DNA from: Adenophora triphylla var. japonica
Taxonomy: Eukaryota > Streptophyta > Magnoliopsida > Asterales > Campanulaceae
Direction: 5' to 3'
NCBI GenBank assembly: GCA_022495995.1
Contig: JAFEMH010002443.1
Location: forward strand, 248,001-312,000
Length of the DNA: 64,000 nt
Shown here in pieces: positions 3,413 to 48,583 of the stretch (positions are counted from its first letter, which is position 1; the number at the start of each line of letters is the position of its first letter). The position numbers and the translations under genes are program-made. The notes under the pieces were generated by a model. That model did no database searches. It had not been told where the DNA came from and saw nothing but the letters and a program-made list of their open reading frames with translations.

Positions 3413-3424
3413 AGGTCTTGATAA

Positions 3425-3535: not shown

Positions 3536-3553
3536 ATGGTGAGGACCATTATT

Positions 3554-4191: not shown

Positions 4192-4233
4192 AGTCCGGTC
4201 GGACTTTACCGATTTTCCAGAAACCTTTTAAAT
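4192..4233 (+). promoter_or_regulatory. Promoter of antisense PMD gene, element I
   Basis: AGTCCGGTCGGACT (4192-4205) is the LTR palindrome of this same element, followed 20 bp later by a TATA-like TTTTAAAT at 4226-4233. The first ATG of the PMD gene is about 120 bp further on. The element II PMD promoter has an equivalent layout with a different palindrome, and a matching AAATNCCGAGGCT stretch after the TATA-like box. Confidence 0.6.
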
Positions 4234-7403: not shown

Positions 7404-7443
7404 AATCCGGCCGGACTAGAATTGAATTTCAGTTCTTTAAATT
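7404..7443 (+). promoter_or_regulatory. Promoter of antisense DUF7745-like gene, element I
   Basis: AATCCGGCCGGACT (7404-7417) is the element I LTR palindrome with one change. It is followed 16 bp later by a TATA-like TCTTTAAATT (7434-7443). The start codon at 7542 lies about 100 bp downstream. Confidence 0.6.
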
Positions 7444-29960: not shown

Positions 29961-31395
29961 TGTAAGTACCCCAATCTGGATCACCCCCTTTCAAACACAC
30001 GGGAAACACCGCAGACTCATCAACGCAGTCTCGGAGACCTCTAGCACTCAAAACCCTCTCAAAACCCTCTCAAACCCCCAACCAAACCAAGGGAGGAGCC
30101 TCCCTGGGATAAAAAGGGACAAAAGGACCTTTCGGGAATTTTCAGGAAATTGGGAAAGCAATATTGGTCCGTACGGACCTCTTTGTTGTCATAATTACTG
30201 AATCTCCTTAAAGTCCACAATATTCCCTCAAATCCCGGGGAAAATGATTACTCCCCTGCAGAGTTGGTCCGTACGGACCTCTTTGCATGCAAGATGGTCA
30301 CGTGCGGACCTTATTGCTTTCGAGGGGACACCATCATTCAGAATATTCACCATCATTGCAGATTCCCTCAAATCGAGGAAATCCAAAATTCTGGATAACC
30401 AAGGAGGTCCGTACGGACCTCTTTGCTCCGAAATTTTTACTATAAATAGAGGGCTCCCCCTCCCTCATTTCACACACCTCCCTCTTCTCTCTTCCTCCCT
30501 TAGCCTTCTGGCTCCCCTCTAAGTCCTCTCGAGGCACTCCCGGCCCCTTTCGGATCCTTCCGAGCTCCCTTGCGGTGCTCTGAAGCCTCCCCGAGCGCTC
30601 CTGCGACGCTCCCATGCTGCCCCGAGGCACTCTCGAGGTACTCTGAGGCCTCTCGTGGTACTCCGAGGCCTTGCACAGTCTTTCCACGGTGTCCCGGCTC
30701 TTTCCCGAGTCAAACCGAGCGATCCCAAACCACGCCGAAACTACGCCCGAGTGACTCCCGCCACCACAACGCACGCCGAACCTCTCGCCCGAGTGATCCC
30801 GACGATCCCCACGCACGCCCAGAACCTGCACGCCCGAACGCGGCCTACAACCTCAACTCACGCCGAAACTCGTCCGCGGACAACCGGCATCTCCCGAAAG
30901 CAATCCCGATCCGTACCGGAACGCTACTCCGACCTCAAACACCATTCCCCAGCGGAAGACAGACACGAATCAACATTGGTAAGGCTTCCTTCCTATACTA
31001 TTTCAATACATTTCCATACATAGCATACAATGTAGACATTCGATACAGCATGCATTTTTAAAAAGCACACACACACACACACACAACATTTAAAGGATAT
31101 TAGGGGTATCCGAAAGACTCGTTTACGAGGCTACTCGGGTGAGCTCTAATATTCTAATATTCTCTTCCGGGGAGTCATCTAACCTCCGAACTCAAAATCT
31201 CATCACACAAAAAACTTTTAAAATTATCTTTAAGCGATGCCCTTTTTCAATGTTTTGGGCTTAATAAAAACGGCGTGGCGACTCTACAAATGCGAAAACA
31301 AACGGCGAGACACCTCCAACTCCGAAACAGCCTGCAAAGCGGGAAATGCCGGGATGCCGGGGCTGCGAAGCCTACTCGAATCCTGGGTAATTTCG
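29961..31395 (+). mobile_element. 5' LTR of element II
   Basis: It starts TGTAAGTACCCCAATC and ends near GGGTAATTTCGA before the PBS. It pairs with 47175-48583. The TATA box TATAAATA is at 30441-30448, a (CA)n tract at about 31067-31084, hairpins at 31118-31129 and 31133-31175, and a PBS-like TGGCGACTCT at 31276-31285. The stretch after the TATA box is pyrimidine-rich, then has many short CTCGAGG/CTCCGAGG-like repeats. Frames there are not genes. Confidence 0.9.
30166..30448 (+). promoter_or_regulatory. Element II LTR promoter with four palindromes
   Basis: GGTCCGTACGGACC is perfect at 30166-30179, 30266-30279 and 30406-30419, and degenerate at 30296-30310. The last copy ends 21 bp before TATAAATA. 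The 3' LTR has four perfect copies (47374, 47471, 47501, 47610) with TATAAATA at 47645-47652. Most copies are followed by TCTTTG. Confidence 0.75.
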
Positions 31396-31397
31396 AT

Positions 31398-31414
31398 TGG
31401 CGACTCCACAGGGA
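31398..31414 (+). other. Primer-binding site of element II
   Basis: TGGCGACTCCACAGGGA directly follows the LTR. Elements IV and V have TGGCGACTCCGCTGGG at the same place. Tat/Ogre elements are generally described as primed by an Arg tRNA; I have not matched this to a tRNA. Confidence 0.75.
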
Positions 31415-32744
31415 CATTTTGTTTTAAAAAACTTTTAAACAAAACAAAAGATTTTTAAAACGATGATGAGGGTCAAACTTTCATTTTCCCCTTCCTTTAA
31501 GCTGTTGTGTGTGTGTGCACGTGCTTCGTTTTTATTTTACAAAAAAAAATAAAAATACAAAAAAAATGCATCAATATACATTCGCATACATTTAAAATTC
31601 TTCAAAAACTTCTATTTTACTCGGAAAAAGAATTTTAGAGACCGCACACTACTCGCACCTTTGCCTCGGTTACACCGCACACTACTCACACCGTGCCTCG
31701 GTTACACCGCACACTACGCGCACTTCGGCCCTCGGATACACCGCACACTACAACCCTCGGCCGGAGTGGTCTCGGTTGCGGTCCGTTAGGTCTTCCTAGG
31801 CCTCTCTTGGGCGCACGCGGGATCATTCCAAACATCCCATCCTAGCCAAGCGTCAACCACCGCACGTTTGAGTTTTGAGTCACACTCTGCCCGACTCGGT
31901 TGGTTTTTACCCGATCCGTGTCATACGGCCTGGATACATATACCATGCCGGCCATTTTACGAGTCAAGGCTCGAACTCAAGATCCCTTGCGCAAAGCGAA
32001 AGCGATGAAAGGTCATGCTAAAATCTTGACCACGATCTTGATTTCGAAGCTACACCCAGACGATGTTCCGTCCCGGATATACATCCATTGCTCGCATGAC
32101 ACCATGTCATCACGCCTTTGATACGTCGGCCATGACGATATGACCCGGCCAACGCCTAACGTCACGGATCCCTTGCGCAAGCAAGGTAAGAGAAGGTCAT
32201 GCCAAACTCTTCGACTCCGATCTTGACTCAGTGGCCGGCTCGGTTCACTATTCACATGGCTAACGCATGGGCCAAAACGAACATGACGAGGCTCGGTCCT
32301 TAGGTTCGATTTTTCTTTTAGGCCGGTGGAAACCGCTTGCACTATAGGACCCTCGCCTGGGCCGCCCACCTGGGATGTCGAAATACGGGTGCAAAACGAG
32401 GGGCTTATAGCCGCACAGATGGTCTCCAGCTGACCCGGGATCTAGCATAGTTGCGAAAACAAAGCAAGAGCAATCTTTTCCAACCTACCTAGGATTCTCG
32501 AGAAAACATGTTTTAAGTAAATTAAAACAACAAAAAAAAAAATCAAAACTAAAAGAAACGGAAACCGCATGCCACGTGAGCTTTCCCCCTTTTATCCCGT
32601 TAGGCCATTCCCGTGTCTAAACTCTTGCCCATCGCCCCCTCCGGCTAACAGAGAGTGGTCGAGAGTACCCGGGAACCCGTCTCCCGGTGTCAAAACAGCG
32701 AGGTCCTACCCACCTCTGTCACCGGGGCGGTCCGTCAATTCCCC
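31415..32744 (+). other. 5' leader of element II
   Basis: No ORF is supported. 31640-31760 has short repeats around ACCGCACACTAC. 32452-32520 contains AGAGCAATCTTTTCCAACC, also found in the element V leader (about 61080-61098). The leader shares a wider block with the leaders of IV and V, including CGGTTGGTTTTT. Confidence 0.6.
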
Positions 32745-33800
32745 ATGGCCAAGTCGGTGGATAACAAGGATGAGAACGGCACCTTACCCCCAAGAAATTT
32801 CCCAACATTGGAAGAAGTTTGGCGAGAGTCCTCATGGCTATTGAGAAACGTCAAGGTGAGCAACAAGCCTGGATCGAAGGTGCCATGCACCACTTCGGAA
32901 CCTTAGCCACCCAACTACCCGGGCTTCCAAGCCATGGCTGCTCCCTACGGCCTCTAACATCTCTCATTGTCTCCCGAGAAGTCAACACTGTTACTCCTCG
33001 TACGAGCCATGCGGTTATGACGTAAGACCACAAGACCTTCAGAGGAAAGCTCGCCCATCCAGCCTCCTGAGGTCCCGGTACCACCGCCGAACAACGAATA
33101 CATCTCACTGGTGGGACGTGCGCGATTGCGGTGCTTGTGCGGAAATGGAATTCCCGGGATGCAATGAACGAGGGCCATCCTCGACGAAAGCAAGAAGCTA
33201 TCTTCTCAACAAAAAGCTGAAAAAGACGTACGAATCCGGTGATCCCACAGTCGGAACCCTTGGAGAACCCTCGGGAAAGTTTGACTACTATGTCATCTAC
33301 TCCGGCCAAGCCTAGCTGCACAAGGCCATGGCAATATCTGCTCCATGATCAGTAGGACGAGCTTCGCACCGCCACCGAAGGCCCGAAGGTCCGGATAATC
33401 CAACCCTGTCTTGGGAAGATCTCAAAGCCACTATTGATGCTTCGGTAAAAGGCTATGACGGTGAGCGAATTGAAATGCGCGGTGCTGGCACTTACGCTAA
33501 TCGAGGCTCCTCCCACTACGTAAACGGGAGAGACAAGCAAAACCATAAGTCCAGAGGTGAATGTTCGACACGTTCAGGTCAAATCCCGGTGAATCCTCCA
33601 CTTTATTGCGGACAAAAGAGCCAGCCATACCTGAGCCACGAATTGAAAAGGGCCCTACGCCAAAGAAAGCTGAAACCTTGGACCCAAAGGTTGAAGATCC
33701 TGCCTTGACACGACTCAAGCGCACTCGAGCTAACATCTCACTCTGGTCCTTACTCACTTCATCTTACCCGCACAAGATTAAGTTGGAAGAAAGCTGGCCA
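32745..33800 (+). pseudogene. Degraded gag region of element II
   Basis: The first plausible start is ATG at 32745: MAKSVDNKDENGTLPPRNFP, followed by TLEEVWRESS. Later frames give ATQLPG and, at 33180-33300, TVGTLGEPSGKFDYYV, also seen in the minus-strand gag. The capsid core found in element V (FYKRW and the W-x-x-I region) is not visible. The region is only about 1 kb and broken many times, so this element probably lacks a working gag. Confidence 0.5.
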
Positions 33801-34360
33801 GATGCATGGTTCCCATCACAAGGACACCCGATGAAGCGCTTCGTATGATTGGCAACGTCAATGCAAAGAATATCATCACCTTCACATGCAGCTCGACCTT
33901 CAAAAATTTGGGGCCGACTCATAACGAGGCCTCTCTACATACAGTTCAACGGGACGAGCGCCGTCTCCCTCGGGTGTTGGTAGATGGGGGATCATCCATG
34001 AACGTCCTTCCCGGCCAAAATGATGGATTTGCTAGGGATCAAAGCGATCTAAAACCCTCGACTCGAGGCAATCAAGGCATACGACTCAACATCCCGCCCG
34101 AGTCTTGGGAATAGCCACCTTGAACTTGTGGTTCGGAAAACAAATGGTCCCAACAGATTTCCAAGTCATCGACATCCCGATCACCTTCACTGCCATTTTG
34201 GGACGCCCGTGGCTACATCAGATCAATGGGGTGGCATCTACTCTCCATCAATGCGTAAAGTTCATCCAAGGAACGAGATCCGACCATCATCTACGGCGAC
34301 GGCATAGTCAACGAAAGGACCAGACACCAACGGCGTCCCGGTTTTAGAGATCGAAACACG
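33801..34360 (+). pseudogene. Aspartic protease of element II
   Basis: In order: NVNAKNIITFTCSSTF, then DERRLPRVLVDGGSSMNVLP with the active-site Asp codon at 33983-33985, then FQVIDIPITFTAILGRPWLH near 34160-34220. A frameshift separates 33806-34114 from 34105-34347. DGGS replaces the classical DTG, as in other Tat proteases. It ends in a KFIQG stretch, then GC-rich linker. Confidence 0.8.
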
Positions 34361-35600
34361 ATGATGACGGCATGATGCTCACGGGGTTCACCATCGAGCC
34401 CAAAGGCCCAGGTGTGCCACATAGATTTGCCTTTGATTTGGGACAAGATTCCTCCCGATGAAAATGATGAAGCACACTGAACTACATCCGGGGCTCGATT
34501 TGGGAAAACGCCATCGGGGCACTCAACGGATCATCAATATCAAAGAACGAGAATACCTTGCATGGCACGGGATACTCTCCTACTCCCGAACACATTGCGG
34601 AGGACAAGCGAGCTGCACGAAAACGCTCCACGAGATAACAAAAAGAGGCTTGCACGCAATCTCCGATCTTCGTCCTTACGGCTTCGACATGACTCAAGTA
34701 CTTCACAAGGAAGGCCGGCAACTTGGAAGGAGATCCGAGAAAAGGAACAGAGGCGATCGGCGCCAAACAAAGGCGGCCGACAACCATGGACAAGCTCCGG
34801 CGAGAACTGGCAAGATTCGTAGGCCTCAAGCCAAATCCTGTCCGAAGAGCATTCCTCGACACACCGCCCCTGCCGGGATCCACAACCACCACTATTCACA
34901 AAGCAAATTTTGGTTCGGAAAACCCCCTCTTTGGCGGAAGAATTCGAAAAACTCTCTGTCAACACGCCTGCCTTCAACAAGCGGGACGAGTCTGCATTCG
35001 AGCTAGTAATGCCCAAGACCCGAGCAAGAGACTCCGCGAGACGATGCTTGGGACGAACCCACCGCTACACACTGCTTCTTCAAAGAAGAAATCGAGATGC
35101 CGGATCTAATCGATTTTGTTTCGATAACTCTGTGATAGCAATGATCGGGAACGGTGACATAGAGCCTTTCAAGCCCCATCTCCTATCAAGCTCATTGCCA
35201 CTCAATAAGCTGGGCCACCTTCTCCGACCTACGCCCGGCCAAAAAAAGGACATGATCGAACAACTTGGTCGACCCCTCGAGTCCTAGAGTCTAGTGTCAA
35301 AACTCATCCACGAGTCCATTAGCTTTGAATTTGAGTCTCTCGAGTCATCTCGATGGCCTCACGCCGGAAGATTACGAACTCATTGCCAATAATGTATTCC
35401 CGTATGCTGCTTAATGAATGCTTCGATCTTTCCGAGTATCCTCTCATTGCATCTTTAACAAGCGATAAATTAACTAACACACAAACTTGATTAATAACGA
35501 TTCACTTGATAAAGAAGCGGACACATTAAATGAACAAATACATTAAGCACATCTTTAAGCATGTTGTCAAACGAGAGAAAACCGGGCCCAAGCCGCCGAG
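34361..35600 (+). pseudogene. Protease-RT linker of element II
   Basis: Broken frames without a recognised domain. 35430-35560 gives CFDLSEYPLIA, matching the element I linker, followed by an AT-rich tract. 34450-35290 carries several overlapping shadow frames on both strands. Confidence 0.45.
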
Positions 35601-37040
35601 GAGGTTTTAACCAAAGTGAATTTGGGAAGCTATTTGAAGAGCCAAAAGAGACGCAAATCGGAAGTTTCTTCATCGGCACAGAGCAAGACGCATTGGCCGC
35701 ACTTCGCTTTCAAAGAGTTCGTGGATGTGTTCGCTTGGTCTTACCGAGACATGCCCGGATTAGATCCTAACATTGTAGAGCACCGGATCCCCTTGAATCC
35801 CGAGGCTAAGCCCGTCAAGCAAAAGCTACGCCGAATCAAGCCGAATGGTCTTTACAAGTCAAAGAGGAGATCGAAAAAATGCTCCGCGTCGGCTTCATCG
35901 GGGTGATCGAGTACCCCACATGGCTCTCAATATCGTCACGGTCACCAAGGCCAATGGAAAAGTACTGCTGCGTGGACTTTCGAGATCTCAACAAAGCAAG
36001 TCCCAAGGACGATTTTCCACTACCCAACATCGACATGTTGGTAGACACTACTGACCAATTTCAGAAGTCAAGTCCTTCGTGGACGGTTTTGAGCTACAAT
36101 CGAGATCAAGATGGCCGAAGAAGACCAAGAAAGAGCAGCTTTCACAACCCCCCGGGGAACCTGCGCTACACAATAATGTCGTTCGGACTAAAGAACGCTG
36201 GGGCTACCTACCAACGGGCAGCAACTGCCCTCTTCCACGATATGACCCACAAAGAGATCTACGTCGATGACATGATCGTTCACTCAAAGGGATCGGACGG
36301 ACAACACCTCACGAGACTGAAAATTCTTCAATCGCTCCGAAAACACTCAATGAGGCTTAACACTCAAATGCACATTTGGGGTTAGCGAGGCAAGGTTTTG
36401 GGATACATGGTCACCGAGAGAGGCATCGAGGTGGATCCTCAAAAGATCAAAGCTATCATCGAAATGAGACCACCGCAAACCCGGACGGAGGTGAAAAGCT
36501 TCATGGGCCGCTGCAATATATCAGCCGCTTCGTCAACCAATTGACCTCTATATGCGAGCCAATCTTCAAGCGATGAAGAAGAACGCCGACATCGAATGGA
36601 ACTCAGAATGCCAAGATGCCTTTGAAAAAAATAAAGCATACCTTGTGAGTCCTCCGATTCTACTCGTCCTCCCTACGAGGAAAAGCCACTGCTGCTATAC
36701 CTAATCGTGACCGACACCGCAGCTTGGAGCCATGCTCGTCAAGAAAAGAAGGAGTCACGGGTCGAAACGCCATCTACTTCGTCGGGCCGAAAGTTTCAAG
36801 GCAAGCGAACTCAATTACTCACCCTCGAGAAAACTCGCGCTAGCCTCGGTATGGGTTGTCGGGAAACTACGGCACTACATGCAAGCCGCACACGCACACT
36901 TGGTTTCCAAAATGGACCTACCAAGTACCTCTTCGACAAACCATCTCTCGTCAATGAGGCTCGCCAAATGGTCTTTCTTCCTAGCGGAATTTGACATCAA
37001 GTACGTAAACCAAAAGTCAATCAAGGGACGGGCCATGGCC
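35601..37040 (+). pseudogene. Reverse transcriptase and RNase H of element II
   Basis: RT blocks in order: FAWSYRDMPGLDPNIVEHRI, PVKQKLRRIKP, GVIEYPTWLS, CVDFRDLNKASPKDDFPLPN, GNLRYTIMSFGLKNAGATYQ, and the catalytic YVDDMIVHSK (YVDD codons 36260-36271). The RT-linked RNase H follows at about 36650-37030, with YLIVTDTAAWS, WVVGKLRHYMQAAHAH and RLAKWSFFLAEFDIKYVNQK. At least six frameshifts break it, one within the PKDDFPLPN to DGF stretch near 36060-36110. It is close kin of the minus-strand copy at 11331-12650. Confidence 0.9.
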
Positions 37041-37059
37041 GAACAACCGCCGATTTCCC

Positions 37060-37500
37060 AACCGACGAGGCTCGAGGCCCCGAACCACAATTTCCAGACG
37101 AGGGAATCTTCGCAATCGAAGGCGAAAATCGATGGCAACTGTTCTTCGACGGAGCGGCCAACAAAAGTGAAACGGCATCGGTATGCTCTTGGTGGATCCC
37201 AAGGACGAGCACACCCCAATTGCTATAAAGCTCAATTTCGAGGTAACCAACAATGCCGCCGAATATGAAGCTCGCGCCGCCGGACTACAAGCCGCACTCG
37301 AGAGGAATGTCCAAACTCGAAGTTTATGGGGACTCACCCTTGATCATCAACCAAGTCTCCAACAAGTGGAAAACCATAGACCCGGCTTGCAAAAATACCA
37401 TGCCCGCATGGAGGACCTCATCACACAATTCGAAGAGGTCACCTTCCATTACTTGCCAAGAGACCGAAACAGTTTGCGCATGCCTTAGCCACCTTGGCTT
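37060..37500 (+). pseudogene. Second (archaeal-type) RNase H of element II
   Basis: WQLFFDGAANKS (Asp near 37148), IAIKLNFEVTNNAAEYEARA (Glu near 37263) and, in another frame, LEVYGDSPLIINQVSNKWKT (Asp near 37328) give the D-E-D set. Its place between the first RNase H and INT is the Tat signature. Two frameshifts split it. Confidence 0.85.
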
Positions 37501-37739
37501 CCCTCAGGAAATCCCCGAAGGAAAAGCAATCAAACCCTTCAAAGCTCGGACGAAAGGAAATTCCCGCTCACTGCTGTGAGATCGAACTGTAACCTAAGCC
37601 CGTCAATGAGCCATGGTATAACCGCATTTTCCAATACCTCAAGAACGGGAAACCACCTTCATGAACAAGGAAGACCCACACACGTAGGGGTCAAAACCAA
37701 GAGCATCATGGCCCTAAAACGCCTTAGCCTCTCACTTCG

Positions 37740-38794
37740 TCATCCTCGGGGACATGTTATACAAGAAACGCTACCACGGGCCACTCCTACGCCGCGTCGC
37801 CCAAGAAGAAGCAAGCAAGTTCATGAACGAAGTCCACAATGGGGCTTGCGGTCCCCACATGAACGCCAGAGCCCCGATGCAAATCATTCTCGTGATGGGC
37901 TACTACCGGATTCCATGGAGGCGCATTGCATCCACTTTGTCCGAAGCCGCGACAAGTGCCAACGGTTCTCCAACCTCAATCATCTACCACCCCACGATCT
38001 CTACCGCATGACTACACCTCGCCCTTTGCCACTTTGGGGAATTGACGTCATCGGGAAAATCGCTCCGCCAGCAAAGAATCTGGTCACGAGTTCATCTTAG
38101 TAGCCATCGACTACTTCACCAAATGGGTCGAAGCCAAGTCCTACAAGGTACTTCACCTCCAAGAAGGTCGCGCATTTCCTCAAGGAAAACATCATCTCGC
38201 CGATACGCATCCCAAATGAGGTCATATCGACAACGGCTCACACTTCGAAGGGGAATTCGACTGCATCGCCGGCTGAATTCAAGATCACACGCCACAAATC
38301 TTCTCCCTACCGGCCACAAACAAACGGCGCCGTGGAAGCAAAGAAACAAAACCTCGAACGGATCATCCGAAAAATGACCACCCGAGGACGAGATTGGCCC
38401 GAGAAGCCGCACCTTGCACTTTGGGGCTACCGCACATCGCCGAATGCCCACGGGAGAAACCCCATTTGCCCCGACCTACGGGATGGAAGCAGCCCTTCCC
38501 ATCGAGCCGAAATTCCCTCACTCCGAGTGCCGCTGAAAATGACATCAACGAAGTCGAATGGCTCCGGCCGACATGACGAATTGGCTCGCTAGACGAGCGA
38601 CGACTAAAGGCCATGGAACACGTCCGAGCCTATCAAAGCAGATGGCTAGAGCTTTCGACAAGAAAGTCAAATCCCGAGACATCGTGGAAGGTGACCTTGT
38701 ACTCAAAGAAAAGCCTCCCACTCGAACCAACCCACTGGGAAAATGGGAACCCACATGGATCGGCCCTTTCGTGGTTCAAAAGATCTTCTCCTGA
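37740..38794 (+). pseudogene. Integrase of element II
   Basis: The zinc-finger histidines lie in EVHNGACGPHMNARA (about 37825-37870), with MGYYR after them, and cysteines in HCIHFVRSRDKCQRFSN. The core begins with PLWGIDVIGKI (first Asp, near 38045), then IDYFTKWVEAKSYKV, DNGSHFEG (second Asp, near 38230) and TNGAVEAKKQNLERI (Glu, near 38330). The tail is RAFDKKVKSRDIVEGDLVLK and GKWEPTWIGPFVV, a GPY/F-type module. It ends at 38794. Frames change several times. The Glu block reads AKKQNL where AANKNI is usual. Confidence 0.9.
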
Positions 38795-39704
38795 GGCGCC
38801 ATGAAGCCGACGTACCTAGACGGCAATCCCTTCATGAATCCAAATAACGGAAGCAAACTTCGCAGATACTTCGCCCGAAGAAGAACAATGCATCTCTTGG
38901 CACTCCATGTAGTGTCGAACTACGTGCACTCCGAGCCCTCTAGTCCTGGGAACGTAGGCAACCTTAATTGGTCCGGTCTAAAAATATACAAAAAGTCAAA
39001 AGTTTGAATGTCAATCAAGACCTCCATCAAGCTCCGCACTTTTCAAGAACACGCCCCAAAGCCATCACCTTGACCAAGTCAAACGACGGCGGCAACATCA
39101 AAGGACATCCGAGGGTCACTCAAAGATCAAACGACCGACTCATGTCCGCTTCCAAGCCAGGGCTTGTCTTCGCCCTCACGCGCTTCAAAAAAAAAAAAAA
39201 AAAAGAGCTCGAGCAAGGGCTCACAAAAAAAAAAAAAAGAGAGCTCGAGCAAGGGCTCACAAAAAAAAAACAACAACAATAAATAAAAGAAGCTCAAGCA
39301 GAAGCTGCAAAAAGAGGTCAAGAGCCCGACGCCAACAAGAGGCAAGGAATCTACGAAAAAGACCGTCAAAACGGCTTGTCAGGGGAGCATTCAACCTCTC
39401 AGCCAAGCACAAAGCCTCAAAGAAAGTGGATTGCCGTCGTGGCCTGCATCGCTTCAAGTCCGCAAATGCAATGTAAAAGTCCAAAGATGGACGCCGACAA
39501 AGTGCACAAATGTAAGCAAAGGCAAACAAGAGATCTTGCGTCTCGACAAAGCTTTAAAAGTAAATCACAAATCACTAACGGTTACAACATTTCTTGATGA
39601 GTTCAAGCACGGTCTACTCTCAAGTTCACAACATGCTAAAAGACAAATTTTAATACATTTAACTAATAATGTGTTTGCAATGCAATGAATGGATACCTAG
39701 GAGG
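38795..39704. other. Convergent spacer after element II pol
   Basis: 38918-38962 holds the pol-3' motif CGAACTACG...GGGAACGTAGGCAACC. 39188-39262 has A-tracts alternating with two copies of GAGCTCGAGCAAGGGCTCAC. The stretch to 39704 is unassigned and probably includes the 3' ends of pol and of the DUF7745-like transcript. Confidence 0.5.
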
Positions 39705-41217
39705 TCATTCCGCGCCATCTCGCGCTTGTCCCTCGCCATTCTTTCCTTTCTTCCTCGTCCCCGGCGAGTCTTCTTTCGCTTCACGTGAACCAACTCGCGT
39801 CTCTCGCCCGAGATCCGGGGTCCTCCCCGTAGAGTCAAACAATCCAAGAGCTCTCGTGGCTTCATTCGCCCGTGCTTCGGCTCGGATCTCCTCCCCGCGA
39901 GTCCCGTAAAAGAGGACCTCTCCCCGTCGCCGGTCAACTCTAGTCTCGTAGTCAAACAAAGTGTCTCCCGTCACATCCAAAGGGTCGCACTGTGCTTCGG
40001 AACTCCTAAGGCAATAGCTACTACGGCAACCGGGTCCTGCATCGCTACACGCCTCGCTTCTCCAAGACCACTTGGGACCGCCCAACACGCCGCTCATACC
40101 AAAGCCGTATACCGAGTCGTCAATACAACGCTCCCCGACGCCTAAGGAGTACCACAGAGGGAAAGCGGAATACTTCCATACCTCGTAAAATACAAGAAGG
40201 CACCCGAAGCCGCCATACAAAGAGGAACTACCTCCGCAGTAGCAAGGTCATCCTGCCCCAACAAAGGCTCCCGCTTCATCCCAAACCGCCGGAAACAAGC
40301 GACGGAATATGAAGGAGGACCAAGACAAACCTCGAACTCGACAACGTAGGACCCTTCCCCGCAAGATCCTCCCGGTCTCAATCCTCCAAGCCGCGGAACC
40401 CACCGCCGGATCTCGATGCGTACCAAGCCGTGCCATCCATCTCTCCCAGCGATCGATCCATATCCAACACAAGAGGTCGCCGAGCAAATGACCACGGGCT
40501 AAACGACGCCTGAGCCTCTGGCATGGCCTCGAAGTCTCTCTCGCAGCCCACAAGGTGAGCAAAGCGGGGCTTCCCCTCTCATAAAACGATCCCTGCCGCA
40601 CGGTCGATACCATGAAGAGTCTCCCCAAAGACCAACGGACAATATCCTCTCCACTCTGCAGCGTCTCCTACCACATCTAGCAAAGCGCCATCACAAATGC
40701 CAAGGGAACCGACTGTAAAAGCTGCCGCCATCACGCACAAGGCAAATACATCCCAAGAGACGTCACTCTTCATCATCAACCATGAACCGCTCCGCAGCCT
40801 CGTAAATGTCGATATGACCCGAATCAAGGATCATGCCCCGCACTTCTTCCAACGAAGTACGAAGAAAGTCTCGCAAGCTTCACGCTCACCGCAGACCACC
40901 AATCAAAGGAAGCGAGATGGCCTCCACCTCCGGTCCTCCAATCAAAGCCCGAAAATCCTCAAAAGTGGGCACCATTTCATTGTAGGAGAAACAAGACACG
41001 TGCCTCCTAACATCCTGCAACTTCGCGGCAGCCCGCAACAAATCCCAATCAGAACCAACTCCTTAAAAGACCAAACCGAGCAAAGACGAAACCTTACCTC
41101 GAAAGCCCGTCTCGATGCCTCATACGGCGCCGCATCCACGTTTTCAACCGCCAAGGAAGTGTGCTTGCCTCTCCGCGAAAGCCTCGGCAAAATTCTAGGG
41201 ACGTACGAAGAATCCAT
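39705..41217 (-). pseudogene. DUF7745-like gene carried antisense by element II
   Basis: The start is ATG at 41217 (MDSSYVPRILPRLSRRGKHT), and the end is the stop at 39705 after RKKGKNGEGQARDGAE. Length is about 1.51 kb, against 1.49 kb in element I. Early blocks are RRAFEVRF and SFKEL. The most telling block, at 40827-40579, reads DVFALCVMAAAFTVGSLGI, then LVFGETLHGIDRAAGIVL, matching FAWGAFALCVIATTV and LVLGETFWA in element I. The C-terminal part is charged (DYETRVDRRRGEVLFYGTRG, EARANEATRALG). Resemblance to DUF7745 is from memory. No function is known. The frame is broken in several places, so it is scored as a pseudogene, although consensus error may contribute. Confidence 0.55.
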
Positions 41218-41307
41218 GGCAAAAATGGAGGTTCCTAGAGAAAATGGGGAAGAAAGCTCGAAAATGGCCGCAAATGGGGAAATGAGGAAGAACCGTACAC
41301 CGGAAAG

Positions 41308-41381
41308 CATTTATGTCCTTCCCAAAAGCAAGGTTGGTCCGTACGGACCTCTTTTGCATGCTAAGTATGTCCGTACGGACC
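41308..41381 (-). promoter_or_regulatory. Promoter of antisense DUF7745-like gene, element II
   Basis: GGTCCGTACGGACC (41336-41349) and TGTCCGTACGGACC (41368-41381) are spaced 32 bp, like the LTR pair spaced 30 bp. On the minus strand a TATA-like ACATAAATGC follows at 41317-41308, about 90 bp before the start codon at 41217. Confidence 0.65.
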
Positions 41382-41666
41382 TCCTTGCAAACGTAACCCA
41401 TTTCCCCAAAGAACAAGACAAAAGCCACCGTCCTCAAAGAAACCTTGCTCCAAACCGCCCAAACACCGGCCAAAGCCATTCCCGCAAACATACACTACCC
41501 ACAAATGCACTCTCACCACGTGGCATGCACAAAATAAAAATAATAATAGCAACAATTTCTAGGACAAATCCCGGAATCACAAAAATTGACATTACATCTT
41601 AAAATAAAATGCCGTTTGCCATGCAAATACATGTGTTTTATTACAGTACCCATAAATGTCTCGTTG

Positions 41667-44600
41667 CTAAACAAAAAAAAAAAAAAAAAAAGAGGGATAT
41701 GAAAAGAGGGAAAGCAAATGAATACTAATCGACTCCTCAAGATCATCATCCTCGCCGAGGTCCTCCAAAGAAAAGTCGGGCATCCTGGCCGAACTCGCCG
41801 CCTGGCCACATCCTCGTCGCCGAAATACCGAGCACCCGCCGGAGGCTCCCACGAAAAGTACTCGAAGGATCAAATCCGGCGAAAGGATCAAAGAAAGAAG
41901 GCTCGAGGAACCCTCACCCCGTGCGCCATGCGGAGGCATGAACCGATAAAAGGGCCGCTCCCTCGAAGGCCCCGCAGCCTCCCGAAGATGTCCCGCATCC
42001 ATGCTATGCCGCCCTCAAAGGTCCCTCCCCGCCGCGGCTCCGCTCGGCTCTAGGCGGAGGAACGTCCACAGTGCCTCGAAGGCATAGGCTCGTACGCCGG
42101 CACGCGTCGCGAAGACCGGCAAGATATCTTCGACGCCATCTTCTTCGCAAACGACCTCATCGCCACGTAACGGCGAGTCAGCATATCGTAGGCTCTCCCC
42201 GGGACCTGCACCAACAAGAAGCCAAGGAAACGCTCATCAAATACAAGCTTATACTCAACAACAAAAAGAGAAAAATACGTAAAAGATGCCAAGATGGAAA
42301 AGAGTCAAGCACACTCACCGATCTATCGGGGTCCACTCAGTATGCAAGCAGAGCTCAAGCCCGAACGGGCATGCATACCCTCCTCTCGATCCGTCCCCGC
42401 GGACGTACGTGAAATCCGGTCCCGGCATCGGAACCTCTGGGAGCTCGCGGCCAGCCTTCTCTCCCGCGCGCACTGCGGCGTCCCGCCTTCCTCCTCACGA
42501 AGGCCCCGTACTCCTCTCCATACAAATGAACTCCTCGGCACCGACACCGCCAAGGTACCTCTCGAAATCGAGCACGTCCATGTCCCGGAATCAAGCATCC
42601 CAAAGGGAGGGTCCCTCAGCCACGGGAAGCACACCGGCCATGCCGCGTAAGACCCGCTCCCCGTGTACATGACATCACAAGTCAAGCCCCGCAAAGATCT
42701 TCCGCCGCGCCGTCACCTCGGGAGCCCTCAAACTCATCCCTCATACCGAGCCCACGGGAACAAGACGAACCCTCCGGCTATCCCTCTCCGTGACGCTCCC
42801 GCACATCCCCGTAGGCGATGGTGAGCTTCCCCCGCCGGTCCTCCTCTTCCTCGCCGTACGAGCCCAAATTTCAAAGATAGCAGGTACGCAAAGAATGTAC
42901 CCCCAGATCTCTATCCCACGGGAAGCACTGAAAACCTCATAAAACCACACCTCGTGACAAAAACAGAGAAGGCTCAAGGCAAAAGACAATGGAGAAAAGA
43001 CAAGTTGCTAAATCAAAAACAAAGAATAAACTCATACCTCCAAAGCAAAGTCAAACAGCCAACGAATCCGCCACACCCGCTAAACCGGTCCAAGGAGAAG
43101 TAGAGCTCGCCCAAGCTCGCTCGCCCCAAGCAATGTCGCACCCTATCCAGTCAATCAAGCTCTCCAACAGAGCAAAGGGAGCCGCGGTCGCGTGGTTCGA
43201 GAACAAAGTCTCTGACAAAGGCATACCACAAAAAGGAGCGCGCCAATCGCTCCGTCGTCACCCGGCCGGTACCCTGGATGTAGGCCCCAATACCGGCCGT
43301 GATCTTCATCTCCACGTCACTATACAACATGCCTGTGCCCTCGCGAGGACGAGGCTCAAAGCCCAACAGCCTCGGTCAACACCACATCGAGATCATATCC
43401 CTCCACCGCACCGGCCCTCCTTCAAGGAAAGCCCTGATCGCAAAGAAAGTCGGTAGCGTCACCGTCACCTCTCCCTGCCAGATGGAAGGTGTGGGTGGTA
43501 TCCCACCGCATACTCGATAAAGGCCAAGGAAGACGCTCTTGTTCTTCCTCGTGTCGACACTCCGGGTTCTCAACGAACACACCTAGTGCCGAAGCATAAA
43601 CCACCTCCGGACTCGCCTACTACCGTCCACGGAAATATCGTGCATCCGCCGCCATAGCTCCACAATGCCTCGAGCGATCCCCGAGTCTTCATCCTCTTGG
43701 CCTTCCCGCCATAAGCCCCGCATCCCGCAGCAGTAAACACAGCAAAGGTACGTCAATCACAAGATTTAATATAAAGGCACATATAACCCGTCACAAAACA
43801 CGACACATATTGCACATAATTTTCACATACATTATACATATAATTTTTCCATGTAACCCGTCACAAAACACGGCACACAATCCACATATAATGCACATAA
43901 TTTTCACATATATCATGCATATAATTTTTTCCCATGCAAACCGTCACAAAAACACGGCACACACACTGTACATACATTTTCTCAAAAGAAAAAAAGGGGG
44001 GATTAAACCCTACACGACACATTTTCAAAAAAGATCCGTCCCAACACGGCAAAGGCACATATAACCCGTCACAAAAACATGGCACATATTGCACATATTT
44101 TCCCCACAAAGTCCGTCACCCAAAAACATGGCACACGGCACGACACATATGCATAACACATTTTTCAAAAAAAAAAAAATCCGTCCCTACACTGCACACA
44201 CTTTCACATATAACCCGTCACAAAACACGGCACATGTCACATTTTTTCACAAAAATTATCACTACACGATAATTTTTCTCACAATGTACATACATAAATA
44301 GCATTAGGTACAAAACACCAAAGCATGCATTTCATTAGAGAAGCACTTGATTTTCACAAATAAAAGCTAATCAACACATTTCTGCACAAAATACACATAC
44401 CCACAATTTTTACATGTCCATTTTCAACAATTCATCAAGAATTTCACAAAAAGGCATAAAACAATAACAAAAATTCAAAAAATGCGAAAACTAAAAACCT
44501 AGTTCTAGCATTCAAAAATTCGAAACGCAGGGAATCAAAACGGAATGCATTTCTTACCTCCCCGACGTTCATGGAGCGACGATTGTGCACCTCCGGATTC

Positions 44601-44723
44601 GGATACAAGACATCCGGTTCTTCGAAGATGGAACGAACGAAATCCAATTCCTTTGAAGCTCCATCCGTTGCTCGACCACCTCGATCAAGGCTGACGACGA
44701 CTCCTTCGAGATCCTTCCGCCAT
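41667..44723 (-). pseudogene. Plant mobile domain (PMD) gene carried antisense by element II
   Basis: The ATG is at 44723. Exon 1 (44723-44558) in its best frame reads RGGRATDGASKELDFVRSIF then EEPDVLYPNPEVHNRRSMN, aligning with RTDDERTRLVRTI...NPTEFYPAKDRHN in element I. Exon 2 starts near 43741 and contains TRGSLEALW and RWDTTHTFHLAG followed by DATDF, the PMD hallmark (43500-43430). VWFYEVF follows at about 42950. The C-terminal end is acidic (FSLEDLGEDDDLEESISIH, near 41720-41770). PMD proteins are nuclear in plants; their role in transposons is unknown. It is interrupted by many small indels. The 3' end is approximate. Confidence 0.7.
43742..44557 (-). other. First intron of the element II PMD gene, with repeats
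   Basis: The donor on the minus strand is GGGGAG|GTAAGAAATG at 44557. The acceptor region near 43742 reads TTTACTGCTGCGGGATG, where element I has TTTGTCTGCAGGGGACATGG, so the AG appears to be lost by a small deletion or a consensus error. The intron is AT-rich and holds about eight imperfect copies of a unit around ACCCGTCACAAAACACGGCA (43786-44235). Confidence 0.55.
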
Positions 44724-44830
44724 GGCAAGCAATTCAAGCTAAGAAAATGGAAGATTTTGGACAAAAATGGAGGTTTTCTCTTTCTCTCTCTCGGTTCACG
44801 CACTCGGAAATGGGAAATGAAGAGGGAGCC

Positions 44831-44927
44831 TCGGAATTTAAAGCCCGGTAGCCAAAGTCTCGAAATCGTAAAAAACCAAGGTGGTCCGTACGGACCTCTT
44901 TGCAACCAAAGTTGGTCCGTACGGACC
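44831..44927 (-). promoter_or_regulatory. Promoter of antisense PMD gene, element II
   Basis: GGTCCGTACGGACC is perfect at 44883-44896 and 44914-44927, 31 bp apart. On the minus strand CTTTAAATTCCGAGGCT follows near 44841-44825, like TTTTAAATGCCGAGGCT in element I. The start codon is about 110 bp further. Confidence 0.65.
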
Positions 44928-45029
44928 TCTTTGCAAGGGGTGGCCAAATTACTTTCCCCGCCCTTATAATCTTTGCCCCCGGCCGTCCTAAGGCCATTTC
45001 CAAAGAAATCCAAGTGCGTAATGGTCCCT

Positions 45030-45570
45030 AACCCTTCACTCAACCACCGGCCGTCGCCGTAAGACCTGGCCCCTCGCCCACTTCAACGGCAATTCAACCA
45101 CCGGCCGTCAACGTAAGACCGGTCCTCGCCCACTTCAACGGTAATTCAACCACAGCCGCTGCGCCGTAAGACCGGTCTCGCCCACCTAACGGCAATCTAC
45201 CCACCGCCGGCCAACGTAAGACCGGCCCCCGCCACTTCAACGGCACTTCACCCATCACCGCCATCAACGTAGACCGGCCTCGCCCACTTCAACGGCACTC
45301 CAACCACCTCGGCATCAACGTAAGACCGGTCTCGCCCACTTCAACTGGCAATTCAAACCACCGCCATCAACGTAAGCACCGGTCCTGCCACTCAACGGCA
45401 ATTCAACCACCGGCCACATCGTAAGACCGGTCCTCTCGCCCACTTCAACGGCAATTAACCAACCACCTGGGCCATCGACTCCTCGCCTACTCCAACGGCA
45501 ATTCAACCACGCCAACGTAAGACCGGTCCTCGCCCACTCCAACGGCAATCCAACCACCGCCCGCTCAACG
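45030..45570. repeat. 52-bp tandem repeat block 1 of element II
   Basis: About ten imperfect copies of a unit contain ACGTAAGACCGGTCCTCGCC and ACTTCAACGGCAATT. Decayed relatives continue to about 46100, mixed with CCAACACCTCC-containing copies. This lies between the PMD promoter and the 3' LTR, where element I has unrelated arrays. Confidence 0.85.
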
Positions 45571-46159
45571 CAATTCGAAGGAGCCAACACCTCCCAAGAC
45601 GAATCCCAAGGCACACGCTCCACGACGGTTAGCCAACACCTCCCAAGACGAATATCAAGGCACAAGACGCTCCAAACGCTCAACGACAACTCAACCACCG
45701 GAGGTCCGAAGTCATCTTCCCAATGTAAAAGGGCCCCTACAAGGTCACGCATCCCCAAAGCAATTCAAGCACCGGTTAGCCGACGTAAGCCCGAACTTCG
45801 CCCCACTTCAACGGCAGTCAAGCAAGCACCGGCCATCAAAGTAAGCCCGAGCTCCTCCCCCAACAAGTCGAAAGGGAAGTCATACAAGACCGCATATCCT
45901 CAAAGACCGCCATCATCCTTGCCCACTCAACGGCAAAACAAGCACAAGAAGGAGCCAACACCTCCGAGTACAAGTCCCAAGGCACGAAGCACCTCCAAAA
46001 TGCCAAATGATGAAGCAATCACCGACCGTCATCCTCGCCCACTTCAACGGCAACTCAAGCACCGGCAAGCCATCGTAAGTCCAACCTTCTACTCAACATG
46101 CAAAAACACAAAGGCATCTACGCCTCGAAGCACAAGGCAGCCGTGCCTCCACAATCGCG

Positions 46160-46530
46160 GCTAGAAGACGATTCAAAGTCCTCGCGCATCACATCAACCG
46201 CCGCTAGAAGACGATTCAAAGTCCTCCCGTAGCACCAACCGCCGCCGATGACGATTCAAAGTCCTCCGGCGTGGCACCAACCGCCGCCTTGACAAGACGA
46301 TTCAAAGTCCTCCCGTGGCACCAATCCGGCGGCTAGAAGACGATTCAAAGTCCTCGCGCATTACGTCCACCGCCGCGGATGACGATTCAAAGTCCTCCGG
46401 GGCCGTGGCACCAACCGCCGCCGTAAGACGATTCAAAGTCCTCCGCCGTGGCACCAACCGCCGCCGAAGACGATTCAAAGTCCTCCCAAACGTGGCACCA
46501 ACCGCAATCCGAAGACGATTCAAGTCCTCA
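46160..46530. repeat. About 40-bp tandem repeat block 2 of element II
   Basis: Around nine copies of a unit contain GACGATTCAAAGTCCTCC and GGCACCAACCGCCGCC. Reading frames across it are periodic artefacts. Confidence 0.9.
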
Positions 46531-46589
46531 CTCTATCTCCGGCCCTAAGGCCTTAAACCACCCGATTAGGAAAATCATAAAATTTCCAT

Positions 46590-47100
46590 CCCGTGACACC
46601 ACCACGCCCTTCACACCGACCTCGAAGGGCTACCACATCTTAGGGACACCACCACGTCCTCACAATTGACCTCGGCGGTCACACAACACTTCAGTGGCAC
46701 CACCACGCCCACACTCACAAATTCACGACCTCCGAACTACGACTGTGCTTGATTCCCGCCTGTGGATACGTAGGAATCCTATCACAGTGGTCCAGCCATC
46801 GACCTATGCGGTCACCTGCAGACACCACCACGTCCTCACAATTGACCTCGGCGGTCACCACATCCCAGACACCACCACGTCTTACCACCGACCTCGGCGG
46901 TCACACAACACTTCGTGGCACCACCACGCCCGCATGCACAAAACACTCACCCCACACCCGAACTACGACCTGTGCTTGATTCCCGCCGGGGATACGTAGG
47001 AATCCTATCACGTGGTCCAGCCTATTGACCTAAACGGTCACACAAAAGGACACCACCACGTCCTCACATTGACCCTCACGGTCACTTCCTCTCCCAAAGA
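46590..47100. repeat. Tandem repeat block 3 with pol-3' motif copies
   Basis: Six or more copies of a unit contain ACACCACCACGTCCTCACA and GACCTCGGCGGTCAC. They are interleaved with two copies of the pol-3' motif GAACTACG...GCTTGATTCCCGCC...GGATACGTAGGAATCC (46733-46783 and 46958-47008). Confidence 0.85.
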
Positions 47101-47165
47101 CGCGATCCGTATTAGGACCACTTATCTTATCGGTGACCCCACTTCTTTCATAAGTGACGTCTGTC

Positions 47166-47174
47166 GAGGGGCTT
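47166..47174 (+). other. Polypurine tract of element II (probable)
   Basis: GAGGGGCTT lies directly before the 3' LTR. It is similar to GAGGGGCTAAC in element I. Confidence 0.55.
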
Positions 47175-48583
47175 CGTAAGTACCCCAATCCGGATCACCC
47201 CTTTCAAACACACGGAAACACCGCAGACTCATCCACGCAAATCTCGTAGACCTCTCTCACTCAAAACCCTCTCAAAACCCTCTCAAACCCCCAACCAAAC
47301 CAAGGGAGGAGCCTTTCTGGGATAAAAGGGACAAAGGACCTTTGGGAATTTTCAGAAATCGAAAAGCAATTAAGGTCCGTACGGACCTCTTTGTTTCAAT
47401 GATTACCGAATCCCCTTAAAGTCCACAATATTCCCTCAAATCCCGGAGAAATGATTAATTCCTGCGAGTTGGTCCGTACGGACCTCTTTGCATGCAAGAT
47501 GGTCCGTACGGACCTTATTGCTCAGTGGGAACACCATCATTCCGGAATATTCTCCATCATTGCGCATTCCCTCAAATCGAGGAAATCCAAAATTACGGAT
47601 AACCAAGAAGGTCCGTACGGACCTCTTTGCTCCGAAATTTTTACTATAAATAGAGGGCTTCCCCTCCTCATTTTCACACACCTCCCTCTTCTCTCTTCCT
47701 CCCTTAGCCTTCTCGGCTCCTCTAAGTCCTCTCGAGGCACTCCCGCCCCTTTCGGATCCTTCCGAGGCCTTCCGAGCTCCTCGTGGTGCTCCGAAGCCTC
47801 CCCGAGCGCTCCCGAGACGCTCCCGCGCCGCCCGAGGCACTCTCGAGGTACTCGAGGCCCCTCGTGGTACTCCGAGGCCTTGCTCGGGTCTTTCCACGCG
47901 TGTCCCGCTCTTTCCGAGTCAAACCGACGATCCCAAACCACGCCGAACCTCGCCCGAGTGACTCCGCCACCACAACGCACGCCGAACCTCTCGCCCGAGT
48001 GATCCCGACGATCCCCACGCACGCCGAACCTCTCGCCCGAACGCAGCCTTACAACCTCAACTCACGCCGAAACTGCGTCCGCAGACAACCGGTCCCTCTC
48101 CCGAAGCAATCCCGATCCGTACCGAACGCTACTCCGACCTCAAACACTATTCCCAAGCGGAAGATGTGTATTACGAACCAACATTGGTAAGGCTTCCTTC
48201 CTATACTATTTCAATACATTTCCATACATAGCATACAATGTAGACATCCGATACAGCATGCATTTTTAAAAGCACACACACACACACACAACATTTAAAG
48301 GATATTAGGGGTATCCGAAAGACTCGTTTTACGAGGCTACTCGGGTGAGCTCTAATATTCTAATATTCTCTTCCCGGGGAGTCATCTGACCTCCGAACTC
48401 AAAATCTCATCACACAAAAACAGTTTAAAATTATCTTTAAACTGATGCCCTTTTTCAATGTTTTGGGCTTAATAAAAACGGCGTGGCGACTCTACAAATG
48501 CGAAAACAAACGGCGAGACACCTCCAACGCGAAAGACGCCAGATGCCGGGGCCGCGAGGCCTGCTCGGATCCGGGTAATTTCA
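47175..48583 (+). mobile_element. 3' LTR of element II
   Basis: It begins CGTAAGTACCCCAATC, with the terminal T changed to C, and ends GGGTAATTTCA at 48583. It has four perfect palindromes (47374-47387, 47471-47484, 47501-47514, 47610-47623), TATAAATA at 47645-47652, and a PBS-like TGGCGACTCT at 48484-48493. It differs from the 5' LTR mostly by short indels. Confidence 0.9.

Follow-up and report, generated by a model that had tools for sequence, protein, structure and literature searches.

Palindromes at the predicted LTR and antisense promoters of two retrotransposon families in Adenophora triphylla, each family with its own variant

In a 64-kb stretch of the genome of Adenophora triphylla var. 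japonica (GCA_022495995.1, contig JAFEMH010002443.1, positions 248,001-312,000 of the forward strand; hereafter the window), the 14-letter palindrome GGTCCGTACGGACC is found just upstream of all three predicted promoters of element II, those of the LTR, of gene A and of gene B. Element II is a giant plant LTR retrotransposon (29961..48583 of the window) in which genes A and B are antisense. The new observation here is that a second family, element I, repeats this design at its own three predicted promoters with its own variant of the palindrome. I regard it as a nearly even call that the shared site is the operator of a dimeric, element-encoded factor, which would co-regulate all three promoters.

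Results

Allowing up to two mismatches, the 64-kb window has 11 copies of GGTCCGTACGGACC, where 100 shuffles give 0.11 on average and 1 at most, and none of the 11 lies outside the element II LTRs and the two antisense promoters (Table 1). A sequence-only reading of this DNA had placed four copies in each LTR, one of them degenerate in the 5' LTR, and a pair before each of a DUF7745-like gene (gene B) and a PMD gene (gene A), always upstream of a TATA-like box, and had noticed no copy outside these promoters. All of its positions are correct, the distance to the box is 34 bp for either LTR and for gene B and 53 bp for gene A, and the absence of other copies holds at the above stringency. The motif GTCCGNNCGGAC is present 21 times in the window, while 200 shuffles gave a mean of 0.075 and a maximum of 1. 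These shuffle counts, together with the variant count for element I given below, reject a chance origin, and 47,555 genome-wide copies of GGTCCGTACGGACC, versus 0 of the reversed control, reject a peculiarity of the window copy alone. In a census of perfect palindromes of at least 12 bp with more than two letter types, only GGTCCGTACGGACC and AGTCCGGCCGGACT recur beyond the LTR duplication.

Table 1. Location of LTRs, palindromic sites, TATA-like boxes and antisense genes in the window
Feature	Position	Strand	Remarks
5' LTR, element II	29961..31395	+	start TGTAAGTACC; end from PBS-like TGGCGACTCC at 31398; ends approximate
LTR site 1, GGTCCGTACGGACC	30166..30179	.	exact
LTR site 2	30266..30279	.	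exact
LTR site 3	30296..30310	.	degenerate in 5' LTR (GGTCACGTGCGGACC), intact in 3' LTR
LTR site 4, TATA-proximal	30406..30419	.	exact
TATAAAT box, LTR promoter	30441..30447	+	34 bp from start of 12-bp core
Gene B 5' part, element II, DUF7745-like	40615..41217	-	start codon candidate near 41217; frame broken
TATA-like ATAAAT, gene B promoter	41309..41314	-	picked by eye
Gene B promoter site 1	41336..41349	.	exact
Gene B promoter site 2	41368..41381	.	TGTCCGTACGGACC, one outer mismatch
Gene A conserved PMD-like part, element II	43130..43480	-	frame broken
TATA-like TTTAAAT, gene A promoter	44836..44842	-	53 bp from nearer palindrome; picked by eye
Gene A promoter site 1	44883..44896	.	exact
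Gene A promoter site 2	44914..44927	.	exact
3' LTR, element II	47175..48583	+	end approximate
3' LTR site 1	47374..47387	.	exact
3' LTR site 2	47471..47484	.	exact
3' LTR site 3	47501..47514	.	exact
3' LTR site 4	47610..47623	.	exact; TATAAAT at 47645
Element I 3' LTR, two AGTCCGnnCGGACT palindromes (2106, 2193)	2106..2206	-	nearer one 32 bp from TATAAAT
Element I gene A promoter site AGTCCGGTCGGACT	4192..4205	.	34 bp from TTTAAAT, + (antisense) strand; ATG candidate 4355
Element I antisense gene A, PMD match	5223..5675	+	E 2.3e-5, below cut-off
Element I gene B promoter site AATCCGGCCGGACT	7404..7417	.	31 bp from TTTAAAT; ATG candidate 7542
Element I antisense gene B, conserved part	7603..8130	+	by homology to II; no Pfam match itself
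Second element I LTR copy, sites 29582 and 29673	29582..29686	-	
Third element I LTR copy, sites 50891 and 50982	50891..50995	-	
Fourth element I LTR copy, sites 58668 and 58762	58668..58775	+	
Family III LTR promoter, ATCCGCGCGGAC and GTCCGCGCGGAT 31 bp apart	56202..56274	+	TATAAAT 35 bp from start of second
Second TCCGCGCGGA pair, inside family III LTR	57339..57381	.	nearest TATA-like word 77 bp on

The LTRs of element II are 91.5% identical (29962-31327 versus 47176-48534, self-BLAST). A Pfam-type domain scan found RT_RNaseH and, downstream of it, an RVT_3 match, which I read as the second RNase H (aRH) that marks the Tat lineage (OTA, Ty3/gypsy); no integrase domain reached E 0.01 in element II. 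The gag-pol frames of element I gave no domain match at 0.01, and its gag-pol DNA is 72.6% identical to that of element II. A further Tat-lineage feature, extra antisense open reading frames between pol and the 3' LTR, has left homologous traces in both elements. No PF04195 (TRP28) match was found in the antisense frames of element I (2400-9600) or of element II (38900-45100), or in frames of other copies, and the frames are broken; for want of this antisense match I do not assign the elements to the Retand clade. The Ogre clade is marked by a tRNA-Arg primer binding site and an intron in gag-pol; in the window, PBS-like TGGCGACTC words are found at 31398, at 57726 and, on the minus strand, at 49452.

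The palindrome of element I, AGTCCG-nn-CGGACT, occurs twice per LTR and once before each antisense gene; AGTCCGnnCGGACT with at most one mismatch is found at 10 places, of which 8 are in four LTR copies and one belongs to each antisense gene. A third family carries TCCGCGCGGA pairs before its LTR TATA box. The half-sites are thus GGTCCG in II, AGTCCG in I and [AG]TCCG in III, with TCCG common to all, and the centre is TA in II and variable in I. Across the four element I LTR copies the half-sites are invariant while the central 2 bp vary, which suggests binding by a dimer, although 73 of the 424 positions of the LTR alignment pass the same invariance test, so that it is weak alone. Family I has A and family II has G as the outermost half-site base, in LTR and antisense promoters alike except for single mutated sites, and this agreement within families and difference between them points to a binder made by the element itself.

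It is quite possible, if short of an even chance, that a dimeric host transcription factor binds these sites, that the elements exploit it for transcription, and that the family differences are tolerated variants; SBP/SPL, LBD and other dimeric factors are examples of such host binders. The TCCGnnCGGA frame is common to families I, II and III, and the site adjoins a TATA-like box, as with a usual activator. The single-base difference between the half-sites of I and II makes the host factor a serious rival and, with a centre that is not constant within family I, favours it more and an element-encoded operator or regulon less. In the two families with all three promoters, the half-sites are one base and the centre apart, and the antisense proteins are 33-45% identical. 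Against a host factor stand the family-wise agreement of the outermost base at LTR and antisense promoters and the nested element at 17-26 kb, in which no TCCGnnCGGA was found. GTAC, the core of SPL sites, is present in family II but not in I or III, so SPL alone cannot explain all families, and an SPL-type site was rejected as the common explanation.

The conserved unit, at about 30 bp, is longer than the palindrome, which is flanked by a strong TTTGCA-like sequence at one end and by a weaker, GCAA-like one at the other. Two such units that abut account for the pair spacing of 30-32 bp; this spacing had been given correctly, but its explanation by three helical turns is superfluous, and I reject helical phasing as its cause. 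Of the rest of that proposal, a shared site tied to the three promoters is supported, by the other genomic copies and by the element I variant at the same places, while its family-specific binder is a prediction. In six of seven promoter types from the three families the palindrome starts 31-35 bp before the TATA-like box (34, 32, 35, 34, 31, 34 and 53 bp, the antisense boxes having been picked by eye). The exception, the gene A promoter of element II at 53 bp, counts against an element-encoded operator, and so does the TTTGCA flank, whose direction, read on the sense strand, is the same whether the promoter is sense or antisense.

That TATA-like boxes on both strands lie at a nearly constant distance points to DNA as the level of action, as does the presence of four copies ahead of the TATA box in the LTR. 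It is therefore very improbable that the palindromes act in RNA, by dimerisation or packaging of genomic RNA, or only through antisense RNA and dsRNA silencing, although the sense RNA has self-complementary 14-mers at gene B, gene A and the 3' U3, and regulation by antisense RNA has been raised for other elements (PMC7264820). The U3 of the 5' LTR, lying upstream of the transcription start, would moreover escape transcription.

Twelve stretches from elsewhere in the genome (118,812 bases) were chosen through exact copies of the palindrome, which biases their conservation upward. All 58 family II core sites in them belong to promoters, either in the LTR U3 or before gene A or gene B, three of these, in L067, being assigned because they directly precede the LTR body, and none lies at another internal position in the stretches read. 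Stretches L074 and L124-L125 do not reach the wanted promoters. In 12 U3 sequences (window identity down to 69%; the partial L067 and L073, which is not an LTR, left out), mean pairwise identity is 0.982 inside the palindromes and 0.787 outside, a value reached by 0 of 20,000 random block sets, and CpG retention is 0.990 versus 0.734. The five gene A promoters show 0.936 inside versus 0.689 outside (346 of 20,000 block sets). For gene B of family II the block test was not significant, neither in the palindrome-chosen copies (0.821 versus 0.806; 8,391 of 20,000) nor in copies chosen by coding sequence (0.950 versus 0.911; 5,799 of 20,000).

When copies were selected by the gene B coding sequence only, keeping the best-scoring 20 of 39 non-window matches in each family, at least one intact core was found at gene B in 18 of the 20 family II copies, and CpG retention in these promoters was 0.976 versus 0.715. 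Gene B site 1 is damaged by small indels in 9 of these 20 copies, eight of the nine cases being one identical deletion, and site 2 in 2 of the 20. Among the best-scoring 20 family I copies, the gene B site is kept within one mismatch in 11 and damaged by small indels in 9; where the gene B-chosen copies cover other family I sites, the gene A site is exact in 2 of 4 and has one mismatch in the other 2, and 5 of 6 LTR sites are exact. Presence at LTR and antisense promoters of other copies, the check that the sequence-only reading proposed, is seen both in the 58 core sites and in copies chosen by coding sequence; the sites are not generally lost from the antisense promoters, though small indels damage many copies.

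Recombination or template switching could also have copied LTR promoter DNA to the interior, the internal sites then being mere copies with no shared regulation. In element II the stretch common to LTR and interior reaches 26 bp in the same orientation, which favours copying, but around the sites no other 13-bp match links the LTR with the interior, and in element I the shared stretch is just 14 bp with different flanks. As the sites also persist while the flanks in U3 and gene A promoters diverge, and occupy homologous places in both families, I consider copying improbable.

Elements I and II have homologous antisense genes, identical in order (gene B, 45% identity, E 1.9e-13; gene A, 33%, E 4.7e-6), which speaks for an element-encoded operator. 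That the opposite-strand frames of gene B DNA match as well, more weakly (2.3e-6), counts against it. The gene names given earlier find support in other copies: the window's own element II frames (38900-45100) have no Pfam match at E 0.1, whereas, all below cut-off, gene A matches PMD in L066 (1.4e-6 and 7.2e-6) and L062 (0.003 and 0.25), and open gene B frames match DUF7745 in L063 (5e-4), L066 (7e-4) and L065 (2e-3). The gene B piece of L062 has no DUF7745 match. It also tells against an element-encoded operator that neither antisense protein yielded a DNA-binding domain. Of the five complete 3' halves examined, all contain gene B but three lack gene A. The U3 pairs of L063-L065, which are without gene A, differ by 1.3-3.3% outside the sites; such copies moved fairly recently, which likewise counts against this operator.

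Other candidates were set aside. In another PMD-bearing family (L046-L061), many copies have GCGATCGC clusters at both ends of a unit of about 3.7 kb; these may be transposase sites, and the family was not counted as a further case. The CGAGCTCG palindromes of L037 and L041 were rejected as a promoter feature, the stretch being missing from L040 and L042. A scan of viral contigs for the site gave 27 stretches, with flanks unlike those of the plant sites, and a further viral contig scan gave no relative.

Discussion

The function of Tat-lineage antisense genes is called unknown in PMC7264820 and PMC11963269; a site common to LTR and antisense promoters gives the testable idea that they regulate the element itself. 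In the operator reading, a dimeric protein, the predicted product of the element's own antisense genes, would bind the palindrome and switch the sense genome and both antisense genes together. As gene A is missing from some complete 3' halves, the gene B product would be the first choice as binder, by itself or together with the PMD-like one. The effect may be activation or protection from silencing, since the sites lie upstream of the TATA-like box and not over it, and keep their CpGs while neighbours decay. If this is true, the site, present in tens of thousands of copies in a single genome, would make up an extensive cis-regulatory network private to these elements, and a biochemical role would be found for DUF7745 and PMD.

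More tentatively, and with rather more doubt than belief, I suggest that these Tat-lineage elements carry a self-encoded regulon, in which an antisense DUF7745/PMD protein would read a private palindromic code before every promoter of its own element and so raise its own expression and that of genomic RNA, each family founding a new code, as with VANC and Tas. Foamy-virus Tas (Bel1) acts on the LTR and on an internal promoter. The likeness lies in one self-encoded regulator with sites both in the LTR and in the internal promoter that drives the regulator's own gene, the regulator being predicted here; foamy virus is an animal retrovirus with accessory genes on the sense strand, and no homology is claimed. 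VANDALs, the carriers of VANC, are DNA transposons of MULE type, unlike the LTR retrotransposons studied here; a VANC-type system also entails that copies bearing the motif lose DNA methylation.

According to PMC5735166, VANC of Arabidopsis VANDAL is an element-encoded anti-silencing protein that binds a short motif repeated in its own non-coding DNA, and VANC proteins and motifs diverged together. Here too a motif is repeated in the non-coding DNA of its own element, with the element-encoded binder a prediction from sequence. The VANC21 motif YAGTATTAY has one orientation and is often tandemly repeated in introns and upstream regions (PMC5735166), and the term 'palindrom' does not occur in the main text of that paper.

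Retand elements carry antisense TRP28 reading frames (PF04195) in 97% of clusters (PMC11963269), and Grande gene23 has its own promoter (PMC7264820). Tat-lineage antisense frames described there encode TRP28 or an unknown protein, whereas those found here are PMD-like and DUF7745-like; 'palindrom' and 'promoter' are confined to the reference list of PMC11963269, and the word 'motif' does not occur in the text of PMC7264820. PMD genes are described in plant Gypsy elements (PMC6317226 and PMC9289625), and the PMD regulators MAIN/MAIL1 are linked to the DOWN promoter motif (PMC7156037 and PMC9899485), the contact of their complex with chromatin being stated as unknown in PMC9899485. The DOWN example CATGCAGTTT differs from the palindrome reported here, but in both cases PMD proteins are tied, here by prediction, to a promoter motif and to the control of transposable elements.

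Results

The palindrome GGTCCGTACGGACC occurs 11 times in the window at up to two mismatches, against 0.11 times in shuffled sequences. A mismatch search of the whole window confirms the coordinates of the sequence-only reading and also its claim of confinement: at this threshold every site lies inside element II, the plus-strand Tat-lineage retrotransposon, either in the LTRs, which have four palindrome positions each, or in the promoters of the antisense PMD-like gene (gene A) and the antisense DUF7745-like gene (gene B). A further degenerate copy lies at 30296. The sites themselves excepted, no 13-mer is common to the element II LTR and the interior near the sites. The LTRs are 91.5% identical in the part aligned by BLAST, and the copy is therefore not young; its reading frames are broken. 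Element II is inserted within an LTR of the related element I, with the left junction at window 29960, and since no BLAST match to the remainder of the interrupted LTR is found beyond its right end (about 48584), that side looks rearranged.

Positions of the elements and of the paired element II promoter sites in the window
Feature	Position	Strand	Remark
Element II LTRs	about 29961-31395 and 47175-48583	plus	
Gene B promoter pair, element II	41336, 41368		upstream of antisense gene B
Gene A promoter pair, element II	44883, 44914		upstream of antisense gene A
Element I, 3' LTR	500-2603	minus	three further LTR copies in window

Element I has a palindrome of its own, which emerged at 4192 from a search for words common to its LTR and interior. 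At up to one mismatch AGTCCGnnCGGACT is found 10 times in the window (0.09 expected), twice in each of the four LTR copies, once upstream of gene A (4192) and once upstream of gene B (7404). Across the four LTR copies the half-sites AGTCCG and CGGACT are constant, and variation is seen at the two central bases of the proximal site (GT, GC, TC, TC). This would be expected if both half-sites are contacted and the centre is free, but 73 of the 424 positions of this alignment are equally invariant. Two other palindromes were seen in element I: a perfect one of 24 bp, GGAAGAAAATGGCCATTTTCTTCC, directly downstream of the gene A TATA-like box (4245-4268), and one of 16 bp, CGGATCGATCGATCCG, away from the promoter in two LTR copies (50402-50417 and 59248-59263).

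The LTR of a third family, from 55955, carries pairs of TCCGCGCGGA 31 bp apart, the first directly before TATAAAT, the second further into the LTR, where the nearest TATA-like word is more than 70 bp away. A diverged second copy (L071) has, by eye, a single site of this kind ahead of a TATA-like word. Half-sites are GGTCCG in family II, AGTCCG in family I and [AG]TCCG in family III, and the centre is TA, variable and CG, respectively. Around a shared TCCG, then, the families diverge in the outermost base and in the centre. The smallness of this difference is the main weakness of a putative private reader for each family. Elsewhere in the window, direct repeats of about 2.65 kb (17075-19726 and 23026-25670, 97.4% identical, 3.3 kb between them) form a nested, perhaps non-autonomous LTR element, which is without the palindrome.

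Measured from the start of the 12-bp core, the distance to the TATA-like box in the LTR is 34 bp in family II, 32 in I and 35 in III; for the antisense genes, where the box was picked by eye, it is 34 bp for gene A and 31 bp for gene B in element I, and 53 and 34 bp, respectively, in element II. The full family II site is about 30 bp long, GCAA-like on the left and TTTGCA-like on the right, and the paired sites are, judged by this layout, two abutting units.

In the 2.48-Gb genome GGTCCGTACGGACC is present 47,555 times and its reversed control never. A set of twelve 9.9-kb stretches, all on a single contig and picked through exact palindromes, holds 58 sites of family II type with the core TCCGnnCGGA, all 58 at the LTR U3 (upstream of the transcription start), the gene A promoter or the gene B promoter, including three in L067 placed by position directly upstream of the LTR body. 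Two more core matches are of a different kind, one unrelated (L070), the other in the apparent family III LTR of L071. The sequence-only reading proposed a test of conservation in genomic copies. Conservation is seen in the positions at all three promoters and in sequence identity in U3 and at gene A: 98.2% within palindromes versus 78.7% elsewhere between the 12 U3 sequences (matched by 0 of 20,000 random block sets), and 93.6% versus 68.9% in five gene A promoters (346 of 20,000 as good). Six gene B promoters show no identity excess (82.1% versus 80.6%; 8,391 of 20,000 as good), because L066 lacks the second site. CpG retention in U3 is 99.0% within palindromes and 73.4% outside, and five 5'/3' LTR pairs differ at 2 of 280 columns within palindromes and at 96 of 2,667 columns elsewhere (Fisher p 0.007). 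All these values are biased upward, since the copies were ascertained through exact sites.

Copies were also chosen by the family II gene B coding sequence with the promoter left out, which gave 40 scored matches, the window included, from 3,597 first-look candidates; the promoter was inspected in the best 20 of the 39 others. Every one of these best 20 has both gene B sites, intact or damaged, where they are expected. Nine carry an exact site 1; in two it has a single mismatch, in eight one base is deleted and in one a base is inserted. Site 2 reads as the canonical TGTCCGTACGGACC in 17 copies, and at least one intact 12-bp core is kept in 18. The deletion, CGTACGGACC to CGTACGACC, is identical in its 8 copies (within L079-L098) and may be due to a subfamily change or to a systematic error in the assembly. 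Within this sample the palindromes are 95.0% identical versus 91.1% outside, which random blocks often match (5,799 of 20,000), and CpGs are retained at 97.6% in sites versus 71.5% outside. The sole such copy with its gene A promoter covered (L123) has both sites exact there. Among the 20 best of 39 other family I copies, likewise chosen by gene B coding sequence, the gene B site shows no more than a single mismatch in 11, whereas 9 have a small indel in it; the gene A site, covered in four, reads AGTCCGGTCGGACT in two and AGTCAGGTCGGACT in two. Covered family I LTR sites are exact in 5 of 6, and one copy (L099 with L122) has exact half-sites at every covered site.

Discussion

In both families the comparison places a site at each of the three predicted promoters, with a nearly constant spacing to the TATA-like box that follows. 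This would be explained most simply by a single dimeric regulator of the three promoters, and because the outer base is family-specific, this regulator would travel with the element. The main rival, a host factor that binds the sites, is a serious possibility, if a somewhat less probable one. For the element-borne regulator the gene B product is the leading candidate, since gene B is kept in all five complete 3' halves. Gene A, together with its promoter, is absent from three of these (L063, L064, L065), with apparently different break points, and is kept in L062 and L066. Outside the sites, the U3 pairs of L063, L064 and L065 are 2.0, 1.3 and 3.3% divergent, so the transposition of these copies was fairly recent and took place with no gene A in cis. 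As the sites lie upstream of the TATA-like box and retain their CpGs, activation or anti-silencing seems preferable to repression.

Both antisense genes are homologous between elements I and II (gene A 33%, 4.7e-6; gene B 45%, 1.9e-13) and stand in identical order; the opposite strand of gene B also matches, more weakly (2.3e-6). PMD matches gene A of element I (2.3e-5) and of family II (1.4e-6 and 7.2e-6 in L066, 0.003 in L062), and DUF7745 matches open family II gene B frames (5e-4 in L063, 7e-4 in L066, 2e-3 in L065), all below Pfam cut-offs. No Pfam match was found for gene B of element I or the window's own element II antisense frames, and no DUF7745 match for the gene B piece of L062, so the naming is limited to PMD-like and DUF7745-like. 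Neither the gene A nor the gene B protein has a recognised DNA-binding domain.

Palindromes also accompany other DNA. The PF10536 hits L046-L061 contain a unit of about 3.7 kb that encodes PMD, with stops in frame that are perhaps introns, and with GCGATCGC palindromes, in some copies also ATTCCGGAAT repeats, at the end upstream of the gene and, in many cases, at the opposite end; L046 and L048 are without such clusters. The unit may be a DNA transposon that encodes PMD and carries binding sites of its own. GGTCCGTACGGACC is further present five times in the viral contig IMGVR_UViG_3300032782_000007 (L013, L014, L027) and twice in IMGVR_UViG_3300032782_000017 (L017, L026), from one metagenome, in flanks unlike those of the plant sites.

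In titles and abstract openings of the matches listed from the non-subscription literature I found no report of a palindrome common to LTR and antisense promoters, and no retrotransposon title among the matches listed for the motif strings. Tat elements are known to carry antisense genes, Grande gene23 is known to have a promoter, and a part in regulation has been proposed (PMC11963269, PMC7264820); PMD in Gypsy elements is known as well (PMC6317226, PMC9289625). An element-encoded reader of a motif is described in VANC of the VANDAL transposons (PMC5735166).
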